A stretch of 28,989 bases of DNA from positions 1-28,989 of IMG/VR virus record IMGVR_UViG_3300030060_006618; one strand, given 5' to 3'. Each line of letters begins with the position of its first letter. Within the stretch, counting starts at the first letter, position 1. The stretch comes from a virus. A program made the translations under genes and the position numbers. Shown here in pieces: positions 1-24,057 of the stretch. The notes under the pieces are model-generated. The model saw nothing but the letters and a program-made list of their open reading frames with translations. It did no database searches and was not told where the DNA came from.

Positions 1-1365
1 ACCACCGTCGATATCTGCGGTATCTGCGACTAATGAATCTATTTGTGCTGTTCCATCTATGAATAGATCCTGCCACTCATTATCAGATGATCCAAGATCT
101 CTAGCATCATCTGTGGAAGGAACTAAATCACTATCAAATCTACCAAGTGCAGAAATTGTAGTATAATAATAGGATCCCTCTGTTTCTGTTACGCTACCAA
201 GATCTACATTACCTTTTGCATTCAGTAAACCTTCAAATATTGCATCATGAGGAGTATTAACTGCATTTGAATGAGTAATGATAGCATTACCCATGTAACC
301 ATGAGCAGTACACTGATAATGTAAAACAGCAGGTGTAGTGTCTGAGATCGTAATCTCAGTATAAGTATTCTGAAAACTTACACCTGTAGTATAATTGTGT
401 GTTTTACCTGCATCAAGATAAAACTTTAATGGATGACTGCCTGTATTATCATGTACAAATCTGTATGTTTTACCTGGAGTGAAGTGTAGTATTGGTGATT
501 CTACACCATCAATTTTATATCCATTACTACTTCCTGATCCATTATACCTATGTGCTGCGGTCTTCTCTGCAACAGTTACAGCAAAGTTCTGTGTAGAAGC
601 AGAATGTGGTGCTTGTAAATATGAAAATCCCTTTAACGCTGTTGTAGTTGTAACACCAGATACATTAGCACCGTCTGTTTCGACTGTCCCATCAAAAAAT
701 GCATTTCTCCACTCTTTCGTAGATGAACCAATATCATAAGTTCCATCATCTGTAGGTACTAAACTTGACGCAAATTCTCCACCGACTACAACATCGTCAC
801 CATCTCCGTCACCAAGTCTGATTGTTCCGCCACGGAATGTAACGATACCTATGAATTCCGACTCACCTTTTACGAAAAGATCATCAGTAATTGAAACAGC
901 AGCACCAACATGTAGACTCTTTTCAATACCAACACCACCTTCAACTATTAAAGCTCCTGTATCTTTACTAGTTGAATCTGTAGTATCTGATATTGTAATT
1001 GAACCAGCAAGTGTACCACCTGTCATCCAACTTAAATTACCACTTCCATCATTCTGAAGAATACCATTAGTAACGTTAGCATTTGGGAAAGTGTATGTTA
1101 AGTTTGCAGCTAATGATGCTGGAGACTTAAATTCTATATAATTATCGCCATTATCTGAACCTTCAACAATCCTTACTGCAGAACCAGCAGTGGTTGTTTC
1201 TCTTGTCCAATATCGATGAGATCCAAAGAATTTATTATTAGCAGCGTCGTTATCTAATCCAACATAGAAATCATATTTATCCGTGGCAAAACCAGGCTCA
1301 CCTGCACGAAGTGCTGGTAGATCGGCAACTAGACCTCTTTTAAACTTTAATACAGGAGCAGCCAT
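1..1365 (-). CDS. Tail fibre / fibre-like virion protein, N-terminal 455 residues (runs off window)
   Basis: The minus strand is open from an ATG at 1365 to the window edge, 455 codons without a stop. I translated it by hand. The N-terminus (MAAPVLKFKRG, then LRAGEPGFATDKYDFYVG and NKFFGSHRYWTR) matches the conserved head of fibre proteins of T4-like marine phages. A tail-spike-like stretch follows. Then comes a repeat with the pattern [F]xS.LVP..D...LGSS..EW...F.DGT, seen at about residues 198-228 and 406-438. Between these copies, residues about 270-360, lies a cupredoxin-like segment with H311, C352, H355 and M358 spaced like type-I copper ligands. A late promoter-like octamer and an AAGGT ribosome site precede the start. 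The role inferred is receptor binding or adhesion at the tail. The family call is firm from the N-terminus; the metal site is inferred. Confidence 0.85.
   Translation of the reverse strand, partial: MAAPVLKFKRGLVADLPALRAGEPGFATDKYDFYVGLDNDAANNKFFGSHRYWTRETTTAGSAVRIVEGSDNGDNYIEFKSPASLAANLTYTFPNANVTNGILQNDGSGNLSWMTGGTLAGSITISDTTDSTSKDTGALIVEGGVGIEKSLHVGAAVSITDDLFVKGESEFIGIVTFRGGTIRLGDGDGDDVVVGGEFASSLVPTDDGTYDIGSSTKEWRNAFFDGTVETDGANVSGVTTTTALKGFSYLQAPHSASTQNFAVTVAEKTAAHRYNGSGSSNGYKIDGVESPILHFTPGKTYRFVHDNTGSHPLKFYLDAGKTHNYTTGVSFQNTYTEITISDTTPAVLHYQCTAHGYMGNAIITHSNAVNTPHDAIFEGLLNAKGNVDLGSVTETEGSYYYTTISALGRFDSDLVPSTDDARDLGSSDNEWQDLFIDGTAQIDSLVADTADIDGG
286..560 (-). other. Cupredoxin-like domain inside the tail fibre
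   Basis: Residues about 270-360 of the fibre read as a small beta domain that ends in YQCTAHGYMGNAI, preceded by TPGKTYRFVHDNTGSHPLKF about 40 residues earlier. His, then C-x2-H-x2-M, is the ligand order and loop spacing of amicyanin-type copper proteins (H311, C352, H355, M358). I see all four residues. Copper binding itself is an inference, and a fold-only relative that binds no metal is possible. Confidence 0.55.
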
Positions 1366-11844: not shown

Positions 11845-14800
11845 TTAACCAAATAATTTAGTTAGTGCACCAGTATCCCTTAATCCAGTCCCTCGTCTCT
11901 GTATAATCGGGAATGTAGTAAGACCAGCATCTATAGTTAATCCAGTTACACCAATTGATATTGGGGAACTAGATCTACCAAATCCTTGTATCTTACCAAA
12001 GGATAGTTTACCACAAGCACTAAGTTCTGTTCCAGTTGTTGCTATGCCAACTACGCTAGTGGTTGATAGTATATTACAAGTAAGAAGACCAACATTTACC
12101 ACCCTTGAGAAAGCATCTACTTTGTATACATTATTTAAAAATGTGGTTCCGATACCAACTATCGATAAATCATGACCATCTATGGATGTTACGCCAGAAC
12201 CAGTTACTGTATCTGATACGTAGATTATATCATTTGTTGATATTGCTGATATACTTGGGTGGGTAACAAAGAACTCAAGAGCAAGTGTGTTACTACCAGT
12301 GCCTGTTGCTGTCTGTATTCCAGTAATAATACCAGAGAATCCAGTAGCAATACCAGCATCCGTAATATTTTCAAGTGATATAGTTGGGATCGATGTAATA
12401 ACTTGAGGTGGATGTGCTTGTGAATATCCAAAACCAGGATTTACTATTACAGTCGATGTAACAACTCCATTTTCAATAGTTGCAGTTGCTGTTGCAGTAG
12501 ATCCTATACCAGTGACTCCATTCGTTCCGTCTGGGAGGAAATTAGTTTGAACTCCGACTGAGAATGGTTTAGCAATTTTTACACTTACAGTTCCAGTTTG
12601 ACCAGACCCACCATCATTTATAGTAAGTGCACTAATTGTACCTGCTGCAGATACAGTTGCTGTGATAGCTGCTGCAACTGAATCACCTGAAGTATTTACT
12701 AATAAAGCATCAATTTTTATAGGACTGGTTGATTCATAATCAAATAATTTTGCATTATCTACAAAAATTTTCTGATCTGTGGTATTCAAATCGCTTATAA
12801 TTCTTGCGGTTGGATAAACTAGTGGTTCTATAGAATCTCTGGATTTTGATACAAATTCACCCGAAATTTCTTTATCGACTTTTTGTTTTGTCCAACTTAA
12901 TAATTTTGGTTGATTACTTATACCAACTTCCGTATATAAATTGGTTTCTATTTTATCGGATGTAGCAATATTATAAACTGTTCTTGGTTTCTGTGATTGA
13001 CTATTAGTTATGTTATTATTCTTTTTAAGTGTTACAATATCACCTTTTTTAACACTTTCAACGACGTTGACAGATTTACTATCCACACCTCTTGTTCCTC
13101 TATAGAAGAAAATATCTACCTTATCATCTACTGCGGGTGCTTCAGTAAAGACAAAAGATGTTCCTCCTTCAAAAATGTAATGTTGTGCAGGTTCTTGAAT
13201 TACACCATTCACAAATATAAGAAGAACTGAATTTAAATCAAAATCTGGAATATCAGTTTCAAAACTTAATAATTCATTATTAACTTCTAAAGGAAATCTT
13301 CTTCTAAATCCATCTTGCAAATTCTTTATAGAATCGACATTATCCAATTCACCAAACTGCCATGCAGCAAATGAATCAGTAAATGTCTCAAGCACTGTCA
13401 GTTCAAAATCATTAACAACGGATGGTAAATTACGATCTGTTACAAGACCAACTGGTTTAAATACATCACCTTTTCTGAATCCATATCCCTGTCTTGCAAT
13501 TTTAAATGAAGTTACCTCATGAAGAGTTGATCCTATACCAACGGTGCTAGCAGGTGCCACATCAACTGATACTAATAAATTTCTACCTGTTTCTTCTGTT
13601 GCACCTTTATCTAATCTTGAAACCCCAACAACTTCAAGATTTTCATAAGATGGTGGTGTAATGTTAACTTGTGGATTTACATATCCAGAACCAGCAGAGG
13701 TAACACTAAATGTTAATGTTCCACCAACTCCAACAGTTGCACTAATTACTGCTCCTGAACCTGCACCACCACCTTCACCAACATTTATTGTAATGGTGTC
13801 ATCAGTAACTGCGGTAATTGTGGTTTGTTGACCAACAATAGGATCACCACTTGATGATGTGGGAGTTGGACCTGAACGTGGGTATGGATGTAATGATGAA
13901 AAATGATCCTTCGAGCATCTGAATACTATACCACCAGTATCAATACCAACCGTATCATTAACTGCTAAATCATGATCAGGTATTGTGATTACTAAAACAC
14001 CCGTGCTTGATGTGTAAACTGCATTTGTTGCTGTATACTCTGGACCATTAAAATTACCTTTTCTTATAGATCCAATACCAGCACTTTCAAATCTATGTTC
14101 ATATTCAATATCAGTGATATTTACTGATACATTACCTCTATATCCTGAACCATGAATATCAGAAGTCCCTATTCCAACTGCAGTAATCTCACCACTCTGA
14201 TTTTTAACTGCAGTAACTGCTGCACCAACTAAAGGTGCAAATCCTAAACCATTAGTAGATCCAAGTGATACAATTACACCACCTCTTGGTAATTGGTTTT
14301 TGTTAATGTCTTCATCAGATAATATAATGTCATTGTTATTATCAGTAATACCTGTGAATGTAACGCTTGTAATACCTGCAGCACCCTCAATAAAACTATA
14401 AATGTTGCCAGCATTATTTTCTGTAGTGGGAGTTTGGAATATATCATTTAAAAATACAAGACCACTTCCAGTTTCAATACCAGTGGTATTTGACCCCTCG
14501 ACAGTAAGTGTGTATGTTGCACCAATACCTGTAAAGTCTCTACTGATATTATCAAATACTTTATTATCTGTATAATCTTGTCTTAGGTAAACTCTACCAC
14601 CAAATGTTGATCTAGCTTCAGGAATTAAAGTGGTTTTACTAATAATATTATCATTATTACCTATTGGAGGTTCTACAAAGTGTATTTTATCACCTACAAG
14701 GTTATAAGAACCTAGATGAATTCGTGCAGTTGATCCATCATTATGAGATACCTCAGTTGTTCCTACCACTCCTCTTTCGACCTCAACTAGGGAGAAAGTT

Positions 14801-17800
14801 CCAGATCCAATGATGGGACCTATAGCATTATCACCTAAACCTACCAACTTCACTAACATAAACTCATCATCAACTTTAAGTAAATCACCACTGGCGATAG
14901 TACCTATGCCTGATAGAGAGAATATGGTATCTCCTACGCCAATAGATCCACCATTATTGGAAAGTGTGTGTGTAAGTTTTGTAAATGCAATCGGACTTTG
15001 TGCAATACCATCTATTGATATAATTGATTTGGATAATTTTTTATCCATGCTAAGAGTATGGGCGTTACCAGAACCAATTGAAGAAAATACTATCGCTGTA
15101 CCTGCGAGAGCGTTTGATCTTGATGTCGCAAGTTTAAACTCAGATGTTGTCGTTTTAATTGCATAAACTGTTGATGGTATATTACTACCACCACTTTGAA
15201 TTGATGATCCTGAAACTCCAGAGAATGATGAACCTGCAGCGTATGTTAATTTTTCTCCCGTATTAAAGAAATGATTTGGAATATTAAATAAACCTGTTGA
15301 AATATCTAAGGTTGTTGAAGGATCGAATGTTTTTTGAAATATTGGAACATCCTTATGTTTTACAGTAAAAGCAGTTTGATTTACTCTCGACCCATTTTTA
15401 GCACTATATGTTGCAGTAAAAACATCCTCTCTGACTGAACCATAAGTGATTGGATTAGGTAAATTTCTATTATCAAGTGTAGTTTGTATGATTTCACTAT
15501 AAATTTGAACTGTTGTAATTCCTGTTACACCATTATCTGGATAGAATTTTATGTTCAAGTCTGAACCACTATATTCTGACCCAAAAGTACCGATCCCAGT
15601 TGTATTACCTACTCCCACTGGTAAAAATGGAAATTGAGTTATGTACGAATCAGTTGCATCATTTATAATTAAGAATTGGTGTAAAGCAGAACTATTACCA
15701 TTTTCTACCTTAGCCACTGATTTTATTGTGGTTACATCGGAAGGATCAACAGTAAATATAGTATCAGTTGAATTGATGCTGGCACTATTTGACTGTAATC
15801 GAGCAGAATTAACTGACGAATCTGGTTGATCTGTAGATTTAAATATTTGTGACCCATTTCCAACTGAAATGGTACCAAATCCAACTATTTTTGTTCTTAC
15901 TGTTACCCTATTAGTATCTGTGTTGGTAAAATCGATATTAATTACACCAGATTTTATATTTGAGTTAAATGTTCCTATAAATCTATCAGAAATATTATCA
16001 TTATCATCATTATCGAAATAAAATTCAGATTTAAAAGTATCCGATTCATTATGATCTACAAAAATCTCTGCATAAGTCCTTTCAAGAGTAGTGTCATTTA
16101 TAATTTCAGCGTTAACAAAGTATGATTCAAGTTTATCAATATCTCTTTGAACTAGATTTACGGTAGACCCAACACCAACTGATTGATTAGAGGAAATTAA
16201 ATCAACAAAACCAATACTTAGAAACTCAGACCCAATACCTGAAGAGGTAAATTTATTTTTAATAAATTTAATATCATAATCTGTATTGAATTTTTCAAAA
16301 GGTGTGAAACGCAAATCCACATCATTTCCATCCATAACACCTTGAATATTTGCTATTTCATTTGACCTATTACCAATTGATCCTTTTTGAACTGATATAA
16401 TTGAACCTGATGGTGATGGTAAGGTAATTATCTCAGTTGCCTGTCTTTCACTTCCATTTGGATCCACTACCTGAACTAAAAATCTTGAGAATCCATCTAA
16501 TAAACTATATTGATGTAGTTCAGTATTTAAATCAGATGCGTTTTCTCCTCTTGCAAAGTTTATACTAAAATCATCAATAGAAAGAACTTGATTGCTAATA
16601 CAATCAATATAATCTGATAATTTTTTATTATTAAATTTAACAAATTTTGATTTTGTAGGATTTATTTCATCTGGAAATGTATCAACATCTAAAACTTCAG
16701 CAAATGAATTTAAAGAATCTACCCTTTCATCGGTAATTATATCTAAAGTTGTTGTGCTACTTGATTCAACTGTTGTACCAATTCCAACTCGAACATCAAC
16801 TATATTTGTAATTTCCGTATCTGAAAAGTTCTTAAGACCCGTTGGATGTAAAATTCCATTCACGGATGATGCTAATATATCATATGTTTGACCACTCTTA
16901 ATGGTATAAGATAAATTTTGATAATAATCATTATCTGGTAAAACTTGATAGTCTAAATTTAATTTTCCAATATCATTTGACCACCCAACATTTTTCTTCG
17001 TAGAGTAATCTACTTTAAATATTGCTCGATTTTCTACTAAATTTTTAATTGTTGCAGTAGTTCCTGATACCTGACCGAATATAATATCACCAACATTTAA
17101 ATCATATGAACCAAAAACTTTGATACTATCATTCAAAGTTTCTGTAATTATTAAATCTCTATCAACAAAATTAGAACCTTCTTTCGTTAATATCTTTTCA
17201 CCTTCATTAAAAGATCTCGATGATTGAGTTACCTTGAATGTTGGATAATTTGTCTTTTTGACTAAAGATGCAAATGAATTTTGACTTGTAACTGCAATAC
17301 CAGGATTAGATGTAACAAATTTTGAAGCATCATAAACTAATTCTGCAGGGTTAGAATTTGAATATTCAATAACTTCAAAGAAATTATACTTATTATCAGC
17401 AGAGTTAAAACCATCACCTTCATTGTTGATGTTTACTATGCCTTCAACAAAAACTTCATCTCCTACTGCAAAGGGAACTTGAGAAAATCCTGAAATAGGA
17501 GTTGCGAGAATACAAGTAACAATACCAGCAGTATTAGAAATACAACTGTTAATTCCAATACCATTATCATTATTTTCAGCGAAAACTATATTAGTTACCT
17601 CATTCAATCCTACTGGTGTTTCAATTACTTCAATTTCATCAATAGATGATCCTTGAATTTTTGCATTTATGACACCAGATTCATACCTTAGACCAGTTTC
17701 AGGATTGACTAGAGATAATGTGGGTGGATTAGTGTAATTTTTACCACCACTTATTATTTCTATACTTGTAATTTCATTATTATCAACAACTGTAATATTT

Positions 17801-20800
17801 GGTGATATGTAAATTTCAGGATTTAGAGTTTTATCTGCAGAAAAATCAAATCCTTGATCTTTTATTGTAAATTCATTTAGTTTTCCTATACTGTTAGATA
17901 ATGGAATAATATCTGCACTGATTCCATTAGTTGAAACTATACTAACAAATTCTGGTAAAGATTTGTAGTTAGCACCACCAAATGTAAGATTTACAGATCC
18001 CACACCACCTTCTGCAGAATTAGATTTAGTTGTATATGATAAATCAGCAGTTGTTTTAATGTAAGATAATTGTTCTGGTAATTTTTTAACAGATATATCA
18101 AATGTTGTTGTTCCTATCCCTGCAATTTTGTAAGATCCATTGTAAACACTATTTTCATAGTTTATTTCCGAATAATTCGCCACATCAGTGTCTGCAGTGC
18201 TAATAAAACCTGATTTTTCTAAACAATAATAAATTTTAGAAGGGAGATTATCATCATAATAAACTGTCACTGTACTTCCAGCACCAATCACAGTAAAGTT
18301 AGTAGTAGATCCTATGGAAACTAATTCATTATTAAATTGTCTATCATAAAATATTTTTAAATTATATCCACTAAGTGAAGCATCAGAGGTATCAAAAACT
18401 AAATTATTGTTTTTAATAACTGGAATTGGTGGATTGATTTTTGAAATTTCATGAGAGGAACCCTGTGATCCTAAATCAATAATTAAAGGAGGTTTATTTA
18501 AACTATTAACACGAGTTAGTGAGAGATTGAAATTATTATCATCTATTCTGTAAACGTAATAAGAACCTGTACCCAATCCACTTATGAAATCACTAGAATC
18601 ATAAAATATCTTTTCACCTGTTTCAAATCCATGTGAAGTAAGTTCAAAATGATTACTGTCAACATAAACAGACGTATTTCCGAAAGATATTGGATTTACT
18701 AAAAGTTTGTCCTTCAGTGAATTATATTTTAATAATATTGATTCTGATGTTCCTATACCTAACGATTGTTTTGGTTTTACTGTTAATTGTATGATATCAT
18801 CATTTAATAGTCCATGTGACGTTGAAACTGATACAGTTGCTTTCAGTTTATCAACCTTTGCAGTTACTTGTGTAAAATTAGATTCAATTGAGTACTTGAA
18901 GTCAGTATCATCATCATTTGAGGTGAATGATCTGAAAAATAAACCATCAGTTGTAGTAGTTAATCCTACCTCTGTGGTCAAACCAATTAAGTTTTTAGAT
19001 TTGTTTATAACAAATAATTGTTGAGATGATCCAGTTTCTGGGATATTAAACGTATTACTATCACTTAAATCAGAAACAACTATGCTGTTAGATCCCCCTT
19101 TCGTTAAAGTTATTTGTTGATTTTGTGTAAATGGGTGATCAGGTATGAATATACTTTGATTTAAAATTGATGTTGGGATAGGTATATTACCGATAATAAT
19201 ATTTGATACAGTCGATACACCTGTAACAGTTCCTATACCTAATTCTTGTGTTGGATTAAAAAATATCTTATCATCTAATTTTGATTCAAAATAAGGTGTC
19301 TTAAGTGGTATTGTAAATTTATCTGTAATTTCTGTAATTTCAGTTGAAGATGTGTGAATTCCTGAAGTTTCCTCTGTATATGCACGAATCACTTTTCTAT
19401 CATTAAATATATTGAGCACTGATAATCTAGCAGTGCCTATACCGATTGTTGATCCAACTGATATTGTAGGTATTGTTGAAACAAACATATCAGTCACAAT
19501 ACCTGCAGAAGTTATTGCTGGAGTGTCTAAAATTAACCTAGTTTTTTCAGATGAAACACCAATAACATGTTGTCCAGTTAATTTTGAAACAAACGTTGAT
19601 ACACCAGAAATTACAATTGTATCATTATCTAATAATCTGTGGGTCTCATTTGTATGAATTGATAATTCACCAGTTTTATTCCAAATAATAGATGCGTTTT
19701 GATGTCCCTCTCTTTGTGTTTCTATATTTTCAATTGTTATTCCTTTAATTGAATCAACAAATGCACTAATACCACCACCATTTGTATCTGTATTATCAAA
19801 TTTTAAAATATCTCCTACTTTATATCCTTCTCCTGATTCATGTATATCAAATCCACTCACTGATCCTCTAGTAACTGAATCAATTGTAGATGATTTAAGA
19901 AAAATTTCATTTGGTTCATTTATGAAATCATTATCAGAACCCACATCTGCAACAGCATATGGTAAAGTATTTCTCAGTAAATCAGAATTATTAAAGTCGA
20001 AATCTTGATTTGTATTTTGATCTAATAATTTAGATCTGTAAGTATCACCTATGAAATATGGAAATACTGCAGTTTGATTAGTTACTTCAATACCAACAAA
20101 ATATGCATAAACACCATTTTCAAATTCTGGTGTCACGCAGAACCTACCATTATGCTTATCTAAATCACCAGAGTTATTGAATTTATAATCCTCTACAAAA
20201 AATCCATCAGCAAAATCAGTTGGTCTATCGATCACATCCGATGTAGATAAAACATAACTTGATACTAGATTTCTAATATCTGAATCTTTTGTTGGGTCAT
20301 CATATGCATAAGCACCATATATTGGATTTCCATCATATGCCCAACCGATAATTGGTGAGTGTTTTATTGAATCATCACCAAATTCAGAGAGACCAATCGC
20401 AGTTGAGTAACCCACTAAACCATACTGTATACCGCCCTCAGTATCATCTAAAATTTCATTCCCATGTCTTTCATGGTTATTGACTATTAAACCCCTTACA
20501 GACGCTTCTAGGAACGCATTAGAACCAGATGATGTAGCAGTTATGGTTGTGGAAGAAGATGTGTAACCTATTCCTGTGTTTATTACAACTACGTTTATCA
20601 CTTTTTCATTTTCTACAATCGCTCTTAATCTTGCACCAGTAGCGGATCCTATACCTACAACCTCTAAATCTGGTGGTGAAGTATATTCACTACCACCATT
20701 TGTTACTTGAACATTTATTATTTTACCACCATCTATAATTGGTTTAAATTCTGCATTTTTTCCTGTTTTAATGTTAATATTTGGTTTTTTATGAAAATTA

Positions 20801-23800
20801 ATTGTTTTAGATCCATAACCTGTTCCTTTTTCATACAGATAAACATCAGAAATTGATCCTTTTATTATAGGAGTTGCAGTAATTATTCCAACACCACCAA
20901 TAATATCTGCACTAACTGTAACAGAAATAGGTGGATATGCAAAAAACTGCTCACCAATACCAGTAGAATTGATTTTTGTGTAATTATTTCTATCAAAATC
21001 TACAGTTATTGTTCCTGCTGCACCCGCATTTGCCAGTCTAAATTCATTTTCATTTAATTTTATAACTTTATATTGAAGATTTACATCTAAACCATCTATT
21101 ATGGTTCCATCTGTTGAGTATGTAACCACTTCTCCACTATTAAAACCATGGTTTTCAAAGAAAATAGAATCTTTAGTGGTGCTAATTCCACTTGAATTTA
21201 CTATTAACTTACGATTTTCAAAGTCAGAACCTGGTTTAATTACTGATATTTTTGAAATTGTTTTGTTTTTTTTCTTAGTTCTAAATTTATGTAAACCTGA
21301 AGTTTCTGCAGTTGTGAAACCGACTGTATTAATACCTGCATTATAATCACCAATTGTTTCATATAAATTAATTGATCTATTATTGATGACTTCTGCAACG
21401 TAAACCGAACCATCATTTAAAGTCAAACCTGTAATAAGATTAACACCATCACGAAAAGCGGTGGTAAGAATACCTACACCTATTGCAGTATTACCACTTG
21501 TGCTATAAATTATTTCATCACCACTTATTAAATTGTGATTTTCCACAAAAGTAATATTATCATTATCTACATCAACACCGCCACCAACTGTTGATTGTCT
21601 AGCATCAAAAGATATAGTTCTACTTCTTTCCTCTAATTGTGCTTCAAGAATACTTCCAGATGAATTACCTCCTGAAATACTTATTGATGATATTTTCTTA
21701 ATATCAAAATCTTGTGGATCAATTAGTACTTCCTTTAATTGCCCCTTCACTACTGGTTGAACAAGTGCGGTTGTTAGACCTGATTCAACGCTAACTGCAG
21801 GTGCATTTAATACATCAAAGTTTTCACCCCCATTAAACAATCTAACGCTCTCTAGCGGTCCATAATAGACTTTATCGTCAGACTTATAGTTTATTATCTC
21901 AACACCATTTACAAGCATTCCAAGGGCACCTGGTGTGGTTACAGTGTTCTTTCCAGTTTTTAAGTCAAGTTTGCCTGGAAACTTACCTAATAATTTTTGA
22001 GGATAAACAAATTGTGATTTTTGAGTGAATAGTGTAAATTTATGAAACCCTGAATTATTGGGTGCTGAAAAATATTCATGAGTTGGTATTGTAGAGTTAT
22101 CTGCATCAATAAGAGATCTTGATCTGTATAATTTTATTTTTTTACGATCAGTTAAGACCTTTACAAAATATGAGGTTCCATCCTCTAATCCATCAAGTGT
22201 ATTATTTTCAGCATTATAAATTACCTCCTCACCAGTTAAAAAAGACACCTCAGAGTCAAAAACAATTGTGCTAAATTTTAGTTTATTTGAATCAAATTCC
22301 TCCAAATTTGTAGATTGAATTGATGTTATAACTGCTTGATCTAGATTTTTTGTTAATGTATACGATGGAAGTGAACTTGATGCAACATAGAAATTTTTAT
22401 CTTTCTCTGTATACATATTTTGAACATCTGCAGTAATTAATCCATCACCATATATTAAAGGTGCTCCAGAACTGTCAGCAACCTCTAATTTTCTCCTTAA
22501 GGAATATTCCTTATTAGCATCTGGCACGAAATTTCCACCAGTATCTAAGGTTACCTGTTTTCCAGAAATCGTTTCAATTTTTGCATTTGAAAATTCAACA
22601 ATTTCCGATGAACCTGATAATATATCAACTTTATCTCCCACCTTTAAAGATGATCGATCAGGTATAGTTTTTAAATTATAACCATTATTAGTGTTTTCTA
22701 CAAAAAATCTAGAACTAGTGTTATAAATCCAAGAATTTGCAAATGTTTGTTTAAATGTTTTATTAGAGTCTGGATTTTTTATTTTTTCACCAACATTTTT
22801 TACATATATTTCTTGACCCTCAGCAATATTGTTGAAATCAGTTATAGTTTCAATATCAGATAAAACACCTGTGATACGAACTTCAACTTTTTTATCCAAG
22901 TCTCCATTTTCGTAACCAAAAAATACTTCATCCTTGCGAATATTTGATTTTACGTCAATCGGATCAGTTACACCATCGCAATCCAAAAATTGATTTACTG
23001 TTTTTGATCCATAAGTAATAATATTATTCCCTGATAAAATAGTTCCTGTTATTCCAAATCCAATAGTGCTATCAACTGTGATTACTGAGGATCCTACAGA
23101 TACTGGATTTATATTTTGTGTTTTTGCTTGTACTTCAAAAGTTCCTTCGATTAAATCTCTATCATCAAATCCAGCAAATAATCCAATCTTATAGAAAGTG
23201 CTAATTCCTGATCTTGTAAATATTTCTACCTCTGAAACGGATCCCTGTGTATCTAAATCAGTTGATTTTTTAATTGTTTGCCCAATTAACTTACTTGGAT
23301 CTCCAGATATGCTTTCAACAACAATTATCTCTCTTCTCAAATACTCTGCAGATGAAGGTTTAGGTAAATATTGCTCCAAATCTACAACTTTTGGTGTTTC
23401 CCCAAATAAAACCTTAAAAAGTATCTTAAATGATTCTTCGGTTCCCTTCGCTTCGTAAAATGCTCTTGCACCTTTAATAAAATTATTAACATCAAGATCA
23501 GATACAAAATCTACGTTCTCTAAACCTGGTGTTAATGTATATTTTAACTTTTTATAAAATTCTTTTAGAAAATTTGCACTTAAATTAAGAACATCTTTTC
23601 CAGCATCATGTTCTGCTTGATTTGTTTCCTCAAAAAGAAGTTCTTCTCTATTTAAATTTGTCCTGTAACTACTAATACCACTAAAACCTCTTACAACTCC
23701 TGTAAAAGTGTTTGTAGTTACACCAGTATAAGTAAATATTTCATCATCAATCTTAAAAAGACCATATTGATCAGGAAAACCTTTTGTAGAGAATACTTGA

Positions 23801-24057
23801 ATACTATTAGTTGTCGATGTAATATCAGAGTAGAGTGTAGTTTTACCTGATATTACCTCTGGGGTTAAATTATCTAATTTAATGTACTGATCTAAGTTAT
23901 CAGCAAGATCAGCAACACCTGATTGATGTTCTTGGGAAATATAATACTGTTTTAAAAAGTCAAGCGTCTTTGGACTCTCTGTCCGAATAAAATCAGGGAG
24001 TTGATTCGCTAGTATTTGCTGAACCTGTACTCGTTTCTCAAAACCAGTTTGTATCAT
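11845..24057 (-). CDS. 7: Giant baseplate wedge protein in gp7 position (4070 aa)
   Basis: It lies between gp6 and gp8, the place of gp7, the wedge initiator. Its N-terminus (KRVQVQQILANQLPDFIRTESPKTLDFLKQYYISQE, then NFLKEFYKKLKYTLTPGLENVDF and FIKGARAFYEAKGTEESFKILFKVLFGETP) is the conserved head of this protein in T4-like marine phages. T4 gp7 has 1032 residues, so this is about four times larger. Visible parts: a KIDDEIFTYTG/RGFSG module near 70-140; HGF..GE.V.YS modules near 590-660, 820-925, 957-1040, 1800-1875 and 2910-3005; a YHYH domain near 1193-1343; GGxGY modules near 1070-1170, 2020-2120, 3450-3470 and 3812-3885; and a VNGVIQEPAQHYIFEGGTSF segment inside 3585-3775. It probably forms the wedge plus a large beta-rich outer part. 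Calling it gp7 rests on position and N-terminal resemblance. Confidence 0.8.
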   Translation of the reverse strand: MIQTGFEKRVQVQQILANQLPDFIRTESPKTLDFLKQYYISQEHQSGVADLADNLDQYIKLDNLTPEVISGKTTLYSDITSTTNSIQVFSTKGFPDQYGLFKIDDEIFTYTGVTTNTFTGVVRGFSGISSYRTNLNREELLFEETNQAEHDAGKDVLNLSANFLKEFYKKLKYTLTPGLENVDFVSDLDVNNFIKGARAFYEAKGTEESFKILFKVLFGETPKVVDLEQYLPKPSSAEYLRREIIVVESISGDPSKLIGQTIKKSTDLDTQGSVSEVEIFTRSGISTFYKIGLFAGFDDRDLIEGTFEVQAKTQNINPVSVGSSVITVDSTIGFGITGTILSGNNIITYGSKTVNQFLDCDGVTDPIDVKSNIRKDEVFFGYENGDLDKKVEVRITGVLSDIETITDFNNIAEGQEIYVKNVGEKIKNPDSNKTFKQTFANSWIYNTSSRFFVENTNNGYNLKTIPDRSSLKVGDKVDILSGSSEIVEFSNAKIETISGKQVTLDTGGNFVPDANKEYSLRRKLEVADSSGAPLIYGDGLITADVQNMYTEKDKNFYVASSSLPSYTLTKNLDQAVITSIQSTNLEEFDSNKLKFSTIVFDSEVSFLTGEEVIYNAENNTLDGLEDGTSYFVKVLTDRKKIKLYRSRSLIDADNSTIPTHEYFSAPNNSGFHKFTLFTQKSQFVYPQKLLGKFPGKLDLKTGKNTVTTPGALGMLVNGVEIINYKSDDKVYYGPLESVRLFNGGENFDVLNAPAVSVESGLTTALVQPVVKGQLKEVLIDPQDFDIKKISSISISGGNSSGSILEAQLEERSRTISFDARQSTVGGGVDVDNDNITFVENHNLISGDEIIYSTSGNTAIGVGILTTAFRDGVNLITGLTLNDGSVYVAEVINNRSINLYETIGDYNAGINTVGFTTAETSGLHKFRTKKKNKTISKISVIKPGSDFENRKLIVNSSGISTTKDSIFFENHGFNSGEVVTYSTDGTIIDGLDVNLQYKVIKLNENEFRLANAGAAGTITVDFDRNNYTKINSTGIGEQFFAYPPISVTVSADIIGGVGIITATPIIKGSISDVYLYEKGTGYGSKTINFHKKPNINIKTGKNAEFKPIIDGGKIINVQVTNGGSEYTSPPDLEVVGIGSATGARLRAIVENEKVINVVVINTGIGYTSSSTTITATSSGSNAFLEASVRGLIVNNHERHGNEILDDTEGGIQYGLVGYSTAIGLSEFGDDSIKHSPIIGWAYDGNPIYGAYAYDDPTKDSDIRNLVSSYVLSTSDVIDRPTDFADGFFVEDYKFNNSGDLDKHNGRFCVTPEFENGVYAYFVGIEVTNQTAVFPYFIGDTYRSKLLDQNTNQDFDFNNSDLLRNTLPYAVADVGSDNDFINEPNEIFLKSSTIDSVTRGSVSGFDIHESGEGYKVGDILKFDNTDTNGGGISAFVDSIKGITIENIETQREGHQNASIIWNKTGELSIHTNETHRLLDNDTIVISGVSTFVSKLTGQHVIGVSSEKTRLILDTPAITSAGIVTDMFVSTIPTISVGSTIGIGTARLSVLNIFNDRKVIRAYTEETSGIHTSSTEITEITDKFTIPLKTPYFESKLDDKIFFNPTQELGIGTVTGVSTVSNIIIGNIPIPTSILNQSIFIPDHPFTQNQQITLTKGGSNSIVVSDLSDSNTFNIPETGSSQQLFVINKSKNLIGLTTEVGLTTTTDGLFFRSFTSNDDDTDFKYSIESNFTQVTAKVDKLKATVSVSTSHGLLNDDIIQLTVKPKQSLGIGTSESILLKYNSLKDKLLVNPISFGNTSVYVDSNHFELTSHGFETGEKIFYDSSDFISGLGTGSYYVYRIDDNNFNLSLTRVNSLNKPPLIIDLGSQGSSHEISKINPPIPVIKNNNLVFDTSDASLSGYNLKIFYDRQFNNELVSIGSTTNFTVIGAGSTVTVYYDDNLPSKIYYCLEKSGFISTADTDVANYSEINYENSVYNGSYKIAGIGTTTFDISVKKLPEQLSYIKTTADLSYTTKSNSAEGGVGSVNLTFGGANYKSLPEFVSIVSTNGISADIIPLSNSIGKLNEFTIKDQGFDFSADKTLNPEIYISPNITVVDNNEITSIEIISGGKNYTNPPTLSLVNPETGLRYESGVINAKIQGSSIDEIEVIETPVGLNEVTNIVFAENNDNGIGINSCISNTAGIVTCILATPISGFSQVPFAVGDEVFVEGIVNINNEGDGFNSADNKYNFFEVIEYSNSNPAELVYDASKFVTSNPGIAVTSQNSFASLVKKTNYPTFKVTQSSRSFNEGEKILTKEGSNFVDRDLIITETLNDSIKVFGSYDLNVGDIIFGQVSGTTATIKNLVENRAIFKVDYSTKKNVGWSNDIGKLNLDYQVLPDNDYYQNLSYTIKSGQTYDILASSVNGILHPTGLKNFSDTEITNIVDVRVGIGTTVESSSTTTLDIITDERVDSLNSFAEVLDVDTFPDEINPTKSKFVKFNNKKLSDYIDCISNQVLSIDDFSINFARGENASDLNTELHQYSLLDGFSRFLVQVVDPNGSERQATEIITLPSPSGSIISVQKGSIGNRSNEIANIQGVMDGNDVDLRFTPFEKFNTDYDIKFIKNKFTSSGIGSEFLSIGFVDLISSNQSVGVGSTVNLVQRDIDKLESYFVNAEIINDTTLERTYAEIFVDHNESDTFKSEFYFDNDDNDNISDRFIGTFNSNIKSGVINIDFTNTDTNRVTVRTKIVGFGTISVGNGSQIFKSTDQPDSSVNSARLQSNSASINSTDTIFTVDPSDVTTIKSVAKVENGNSSALHQFLIINDATDSYITQFPFLPVGVGNTTGIGTFGSEYSGSDLNIKFYPDNGVTGITTVQIYSEIIQTTLDNRNLPNPITYGSVREDVFTATYSAKNGSRVNQTAFTVKHKDVPIFQKTFDPSTTLDISTGLFNIPNHFFNTGEKLTYAAGSSFSGVSGSSIQSGGSNIPSTVYAIKTTTSEFKLATSRSNALAGTAIVFSSIGSGNAHTLSMDKKLSKSIISIDGIAQSPIAFTKLTHTLSNNGGSIGVGDTIFSLSGIGTIASGDLLKVDDEFMLVKLVGLGDNAIGPIIGSGTFSLVEVERGVVGTTEVSHNDGSTARIHLGSYNLVGDKIHFVEPPIGNNDNIISKTTLIPEARSTFGGRVYLRQDYTDNKVFDNISRDFTGIGATYTLTVEGSNTTGIETGSGLVFLNDIFQTPTTENNAGNIYSFIEGAAGITSVTFTGITDNNNDIILSDEDINKNQLPRGGVIVSLGSTNGLGFAPLVGAAVTAVKNQSGEITAVGIGTSDIHGSGYRGNVSVNITDIEYEHRFESAGIGSIRKGNFNGPEYTATNAVYTSSTGVLVITIPDHDLAVNDTVGIDTGGIVFRCSKDHFSSLHPYPRSGPTPTSSSGDPIVGQQTTITAVTDDTITINVGEGGGAGSGAVISATVGVGGTLTFSVTSAGSGYVNPQVNITPPSYENLEVVGVSRLDKGATEETGRNLLVSVDVAPASTVGIGSTLHEVTSFKIARQGYGFRKGDVFKPVGLVTDRNLPSVVNDFELTVLETFTDSFAAWQFGELDNVDSIKNLQDGFRRRFPLEVNNELLSFETDIPDFDLNSVLLIFVNGVIQEPAQHYIFEGGTSFVFTEAPAVDDKVDIFFYRGTRGVDSKSVNVVESVKKGDIVTLKKNNNITNSQSQKPRTVYNIATSDKIETNLYTEVGISNQPKLLSWTKQKVDKEISGEFVSKSRDSIEPLVYPTARIISDLNTTDQKIFVDNAKLFDYESTSPIKIDALLVNTSGDSVAAAITATVSAAGTISALTINDGGSGQTGTVSVKIAKPFSVGVQTNFLPDGTNGVTGIGSTATATATIENGVVTSTVIVNPGFGYSQAHPPQVITSIPTISLENITDAGIATGFSGIITGIQTATGTGSNTLALEFFVTHPSISAISTNDIIYVSDTVTGSGVTSIDGHDLSIVGIGTTFLNNVYKVDAFSRVVNVGLLTCNILSTTSVVGIATTGTELSACGKLSFGKIQGFGRSSSPISIGVTGLTIDAGLTTFPIIQRRGTGLRDTGALTKLFG
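12595..23850 (-). repeat. Repeated beta modules of the giant baseplate protein
   Basis: At least three module families recur at protein level. (A) 'ENHGFNSGE.V.YS....I.GL.....Y.V....N.F.LA' is seen in DNA at about 22070-22290, 21280-21600, 20940-21185, 18430-18660 and 15045-15320. (B) 'V.NGGSEYTSPP.L.V.G' is seen at about 20545-20845, 17710-17990, 13650-13705 and 12405-12620. (C) 'KIDDEIFTYTG...FTGVVRG..G' is seen at about 23640-23850 and 14700-14900. Copies are diverged, so this is old protein-domain duplication rather than recent DNA repeat. Confidence 0.6.
20028..20480 (-). other. YHYH domain embedded in the giant baseplate protein
   Basis: Residues about 1193-1343 contain IIGWAYDGNPIYGAYAYDDP, then VEDYKFNNSGDLDKHNGRFCVTPEF, ENGVYAYFVGIEV and FPYFIGDTYRS. 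These match the Pfam YHYH domain pattern (G-[YW]-A-x-DG-x-PIYG, LD-x-x-NGR-x-CVTPE, NG-x-YAYF, YPYFIG), a domain of secreted and viral marine proteins of unclear function. Order and spacing of all blocks are kept. Confidence 0.8.

Follow-up and report, generated by a model that had tools for sequence, protein, structure and literature searches.

Can an adhesion protein on a phage virion carry the metal site of a blue copper protein? This question is raised by a gene at the edge of a viral contig, found in the 28,989-nucleotide stretch analyzed here (hereafter, the window; IMG/VR record IMGVR_UViG_3300030060_006618). A sequence-only reading had proposed that the encoded tail fiber contains a type-1-copper-like site, with His311 followed by Cys352-x2-His355-x2-Met358 in the order and spacing of amicyanin-type cupredoxins, or alternatively a metal-free cupredoxin fold in which the ligand residues merely persist. 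The four residues are present in the translation exactly as described, and the span originally assigned to the site (286–560) falls within the domain limits that we obtain here (271–600). Cys352 is the sole cysteine among the 455 available residues of the fiber, and a Cys-x2-His sequence is absent from every other protein in the window. Known blue copper domains act as electron carriers, either soluble or membrane-bound, or form parts of enzymes. The cupredoxin fold is a known one, and it is the use in a virion that is unusual.

The assignment of the protein as a phage tail fiber rests on its match to PHROG 30742 (tail fiber; E = 4.5e-46), on an Mtd_N-like domain at its N-terminus and on its neighbors. 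Its gene is located downstream of a baseplate cluster of T4-like type in the window, where the neighboring gp6 is 63% identical to that of S-SKS1 and other neighbors match baseplate wedge PHROGs. The C-terminal ∼180 residues of the fiber lie off the contig; full-length homologues (L009 and L011) contain 637 residues. In the translation, the sequence SSLVPTDDGTYDIGSSTKEWRNAFFDGT before the cupredoxin domain mirrors the repeat SDLVPSTDDARDLGSSDNEWQDLFIDGT that follows it. Because similar shaft-like repeats are found on both flanks, the domain is apparently set among the repeats of the fiber shaft. The features discussed below are collected in Table 1.

Table 1. Positions in the window of the fiber gene, its domains and putative copper ligands, and of the second protein with a copy of the domain
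Feature	Position	Strand	Basis or remark
Tail-fiber protein	1..1365	minus	455 aa from ATG; 3' end beyond contig edge
Mtd_N-like N-terminal domain, residues 7-36	1258..1347	minus	Pfam PF18454, E 4e-6, above cut-off
Cupredoxin-like domain, residues about 256-365	271..600	minus	AF2 model, PDB structural matches, sequence profile
Shaft-like repeat SDLVPSTDDARDLGSSDNEWQDLFIDGT after cupredoxin domain	1..270	minus	translation
His311, putative N-terminal equatorial copper ligand, Pro312 next	433..435	minus	translation, homologue conservation
Cys352, putative thiolate copper ligand	310..312	minus	translation, homologue conservation
His355, putative second equatorial His ligand	301..303	minus	translation, homologue conservation
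Met358, putative axial ligand	292..294	minus	translation, homologue conservation
4070-aa baseplate wedge protein with ligand-less domain copy	11845..24057	minus	PHROG 2885

An AlphaFold2 model of the fiber domain calculated with 36 aligned relatives is confident (pLDDT 92.7, pTM 0.85) and forms the Greek-key β-sandwich of a cupredoxin; a model calculated from the single sequence of the domain was uninformative (pLDDT 42). All seven PDB matches of the confident model at E<1e-3 are to rusticyanin (top E = 2.9e-4), followed by multicopper oxidases, copper nitrite reductase, amicyanin and plastocyanin. With VIA-align, the N-terminal cupredoxin domain of Hyphomicrobium nitrite reductase superposes over 93 residues at 3.1 Å with a Z-score of 9.0, a value that is modest alone, and almost all of the top matches of the model are proteins of the cupredoxin fold. 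The best structural matches (rusticyanin, the Hyphomicrobium N-domain and the multicopper oxidases) are periplasmic redox proteins or enzymes, whereas the phage domain lacks catalytic copper sites. Secondary structure assigned to the model by DSSP (model numbering) places the first histidine, H59, directly ahead of strand E61–64, the cysteine, C100, at the end of strand E95–100, and H103 and M106 before strand E108–111. The predicted placement is therefore that of cupredoxins, with a histidine before strand 4, a cysteine ending strand 7 and the second histidine and the methionine in the 7–8 loop. The structure prediction called for by the sequence-only reading thus yields a confident cupredoxin with the ligands at the expected positions along its strands. 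The model is also matched in BFVD by A0A481Z7Q7 and A0A481YY19, metagenomic 'beta-sandwich proteins' of pithovirus and marseillevirus, with TM-scores of about 0.76–0.81.

We then asked how the four residues fare in homologues. Viral contigs were scanned with six patterns, five of which lack the Cys-x2-His-x2-Met loop, giving 48 loci. The pattern used to scan genome contigs contained the Cys-x2-His loop, and its hits are thus not independent evidence for conservation of the ligands; the conservation counts given here come from the viral-contig loci found with the other patterns and from whole-genome profile searches. His311 and Pro312 are invariant in 40 distinct domain sequences of close homologues, and Cys352, His355 and Met358 are invariant in the 39 sequences that extend as far as the loop, whereas the spacer between His355 and Met358 varies (GY, PY, AK, SL, DR, VK and others). 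Among viral-contig domains that do not contain the literal QCTAHGYM, 30 of 31 keep the four ligands and the remaining one ends at a contig edge. The wider family retains all four in 54 of 56 clusters, with variable residues between them. Free loss of His311 or Met358 among homologues, which would have spoken against the site, is not what we observe: both are invariant in close relatives, and in distant relatives the four ligands are retained or lost jointly. The His ... Cys-x(n)-His-x(n)-Met set that marks type-1 copper sites is thus present and conserved. A disulfide was considered as the main reason for conservation of Cys352 and rejected, because this is the only cysteine available and is conserved jointly with the histidines and the methionine.

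The joint behavior of the ligands is most apparent when degenerate copies from the whole-genome searches are included and only clusters that have a residue at each of the four positions are counted. Clustering at 70% gives 73 clusters, 60 with four ligands, one with three, three with one and nine with none; at 40%, the corresponding numbers for 23 clusters are 16, one, two and four. None of 20,000 column permutations was as extreme as the observed pattern, a comparison that is descriptive since it does not correct for sequence relatedness. One variant, at 87724–88077 of P-RSM6, reads His, Cys, His, Gln, with Gln in place of Met in a stellacyanin-like manner; Gln is the known axial ligand of stellacyanin. 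Both states occur in the window itself, with a complete domain in the fiber and a ligand-less copy at about residues 1853–1950 of the open frame of the 4070-residue baseplate protein. This copy (GYNLKIFYD ... YYCLEKSGF) has Tyr in place of the first His and no Cys-x2-His-x2-Met. Its match is weak (iterated HMM, E = 0.0036), and similar copies in P-SSM2 and in another viral contig support it. Joint retention of the ligands, with joint loss where they are dispensable, resembles the behavior of a metal site, and the sequence pattern would most likely reflect type-1 copper. The copies that lack the site indicate that copper is not required for the fold itself. Elsewhere in the same baseplate protein, residues 1228–1326 match the YHYH domain (PF14240, E = 1.2e-25), which may also be metal-related.

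Searched on its own against Pfam, NCBIfam and PDB sequences, the window sequence returned weak matches at best. The four residues align with the four copper ligands of amicyanin (3ply) in phmmer, in agreement with the proposed amicyanin-type order and spacing, but at E = 0.44 this weak alignment shows register only. The phage domain resembles amicyanin in the order and loop length of Cys-x2-His-x2-Met and in the upstream His before strand 4; it differs in its weak overall sequence similarity, in lying within a virion fiber without a signal peptide, and in having His-Pro where amicyanin has His-Asn. In the NCBIfam search, which included the amicyanin model TIGR02657, no model matched the domain above cut-off. 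The window domain likewise has no match to PF00127 at its gathering score of 21.2 bits, with related cyanophage domains scoring just under it at 16.7–21.0 bits, or to the At5g54830-like domain PF25489 (gathering score 27 bits), which is matched weakly by 15 of 36 close relatives (best E = 1.4e-4) and above cut-off by a Marinifilum lipoprotein homologue. Some family members may already be flagged as cupredoxin-like by automatic domain databases.

With the family profile, a multicopper oxidase is detected at E = 0.004 and pseudoazurin at E = 0.03, and hhalign against 14 alphaproteobacterial cellular cupredoxins gives E = 4.6e-5 and a probability of 68%, with the His and the Cys-x2-His aligned. 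The strongest link comes from the Prochlorococcus single-cell genome AG-418-M08, which encodes a secreted 148-residue protein. This protein matches PF00127 (Copper-bind; E = 3e-8, 34.4 bits) and shares 45% identity across 112 residues with a cyanophage ACG-2014j domain, which in turn belongs to the family of the window domain (profile search, E = 4e-6). Through this chain, homology to copper proteins is supported by sequence in addition to fold, and the Prochlorococcus protein could be a cellular donor of the phage domain or a recipient of it. Cyanophages carry soluble plastocyanin (petE) genes; these are host-metabolism genes, whereas the fiber copy is a virion domain.

The domain is present across many virion proteins. 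A proximal-fiber query from P-SSM2 matched 346 of 50,697 phage records. Most of these are myoviruses of Synechococcus and Prochlorococcus, and the match lies mostly in the gp9 baseplate-fiber connector. The version in the window matches 22 phage records, including phages of Methylophilales and Pelagibacter, and a profile search found one to five copies in 26 of 27 phage records. Cellular copies occur in Bacteroidota, in a Marinifilum lipoprotein and in secreted proteins with repeated His-x-His-rich segments. At the Marinifilum loci (L062–L065, L172) and those of other Bacteroidota (L173–L176), the copies are either stand-alone lipoproteins or fused to repeats rich in SHPGHIH-like sequences, and both forms are apparently secreted. 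Several MAG loci among the genome contigs that encode large fiber-like proteins resemble contigs of phages that were assigned to bacterial or archaeal genomes during binning.

The best reading of these results is that residues 256–365 of the fiber are a true cupredoxin of the plastocyanin/azurin superfamily with a full type-1 ligand set, which would act as a copper-stabilized surface decoration or adhesion domain and not as an electron carrier. We give this reading a probability of roughly two in three. The type-1-copper-like site of the original proposal is thus supported by both the predicted fold and the conservation of its ligands. The domain would fold metal-free in the host cytoplasm and acquire copper once the cell has lysed, or from the lysate; bound copper, most likely one ion per fiber chain, would then lock the β-sandwich. 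Placed among the repeats of a presumably trimeric shaft, it would sit on the virion surface as a rigid domain for decoration or adhesion. With no evident partner, electron transfer is an unlikely role. Several points count against this reading: we know of no electron-transfer partner of the virion, free copper is scarce in the cytoplasm, the compartment of virion assembly, and the first His is followed by Pro instead of the Asn usual in plastocyanin and amicyanin. The type-1 sites of multicopper oxidases likewise have His-Pro. A broader version, in which many marine T4-like phages bear type-1 copper, one per cupredoxin domain, in fibers and baseplates, with effects on stability or attachment, is more tentative, and we would put it somewhat short of an even chance.

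Other readings are less probable. The motif is short, and the window sequence alone scores weakly against known cupredoxins (E = 0.1–0.8), as expected if it had arisen by chance within an unrelated β-sandwich; however, the loop appears in only 24 of 200,000 shuffles of the fiber protein (about 1 in 8,000), and the fold and the homology chain also argue against such an origin. Conservation in homologues makes chance irrelevant as an explanation and rules it out as the source of the motif, leaving this reading a negligible probability. Alternatively, the domain could be a metal-free cupredoxin decoration whose residues are kept for packing, for hydrogen bonds or by recent descent. Phage virions commonly carry β-sandwich decoration domains, and the ligand-less copies in the same genomes, including that in the 4070-residue protein of the window, indicate that virions can make use of the fold without a bound metal. 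This explanation is nevertheless quite improbable, given that four residues spread over two segments are invariant while their neighbors vary, that 16 of 23 clusters below 40% identity keep all of them, and that they are lost together.

Conservation of the ligands is equally expected if the site holds another metal (Zn, Fe or Hg), or if copper serves mainly for scavenging or delivery, as a copper counterpart of iron-bearing docking fibers. Cyanobacterial hosts need copper. Iron-binding HxH motifs have been described in marine phage fibers, together with a Trojan Horse hypothesis in which fiber metal aids docking to a host metal receptor (PMC11705849). T4 gp37 and the marine HxH fibers share with the domain described here a metal, putative in our case, on an adhesion fiber (PMC11705849), but there octahedral iron is held by HxH pairs and not by a cupredoxin domain. 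By analogy, a copper version of the Trojan Horse idea is possible. We consider these options unlikely, because a cupredoxin fold bearing His-Cys-His-Met typifies type-1 copper and nothing in the analysis ties the domain to a metal receptor.

We found no description of cupredoxin domains in phage virions in the literature searched, whose coverage was partial, with subscription papers mostly outside it. That abundant ocean phages have a conserved and complete putative copper site in their adhesion and baseplate proteins suggests a second type of metal-dependent virion beside the iron HxH fibers. It also supplies a biochemical hypothesis for domains so far annotated only as tail fiber, gp9 connector or hypothetical, and makes an effect of copper on phage stability or adsorption directly testable. 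If the broader copper reading is true, virions would carry copper unnoticed through seawater, with a bearing on seawater copper speciation.
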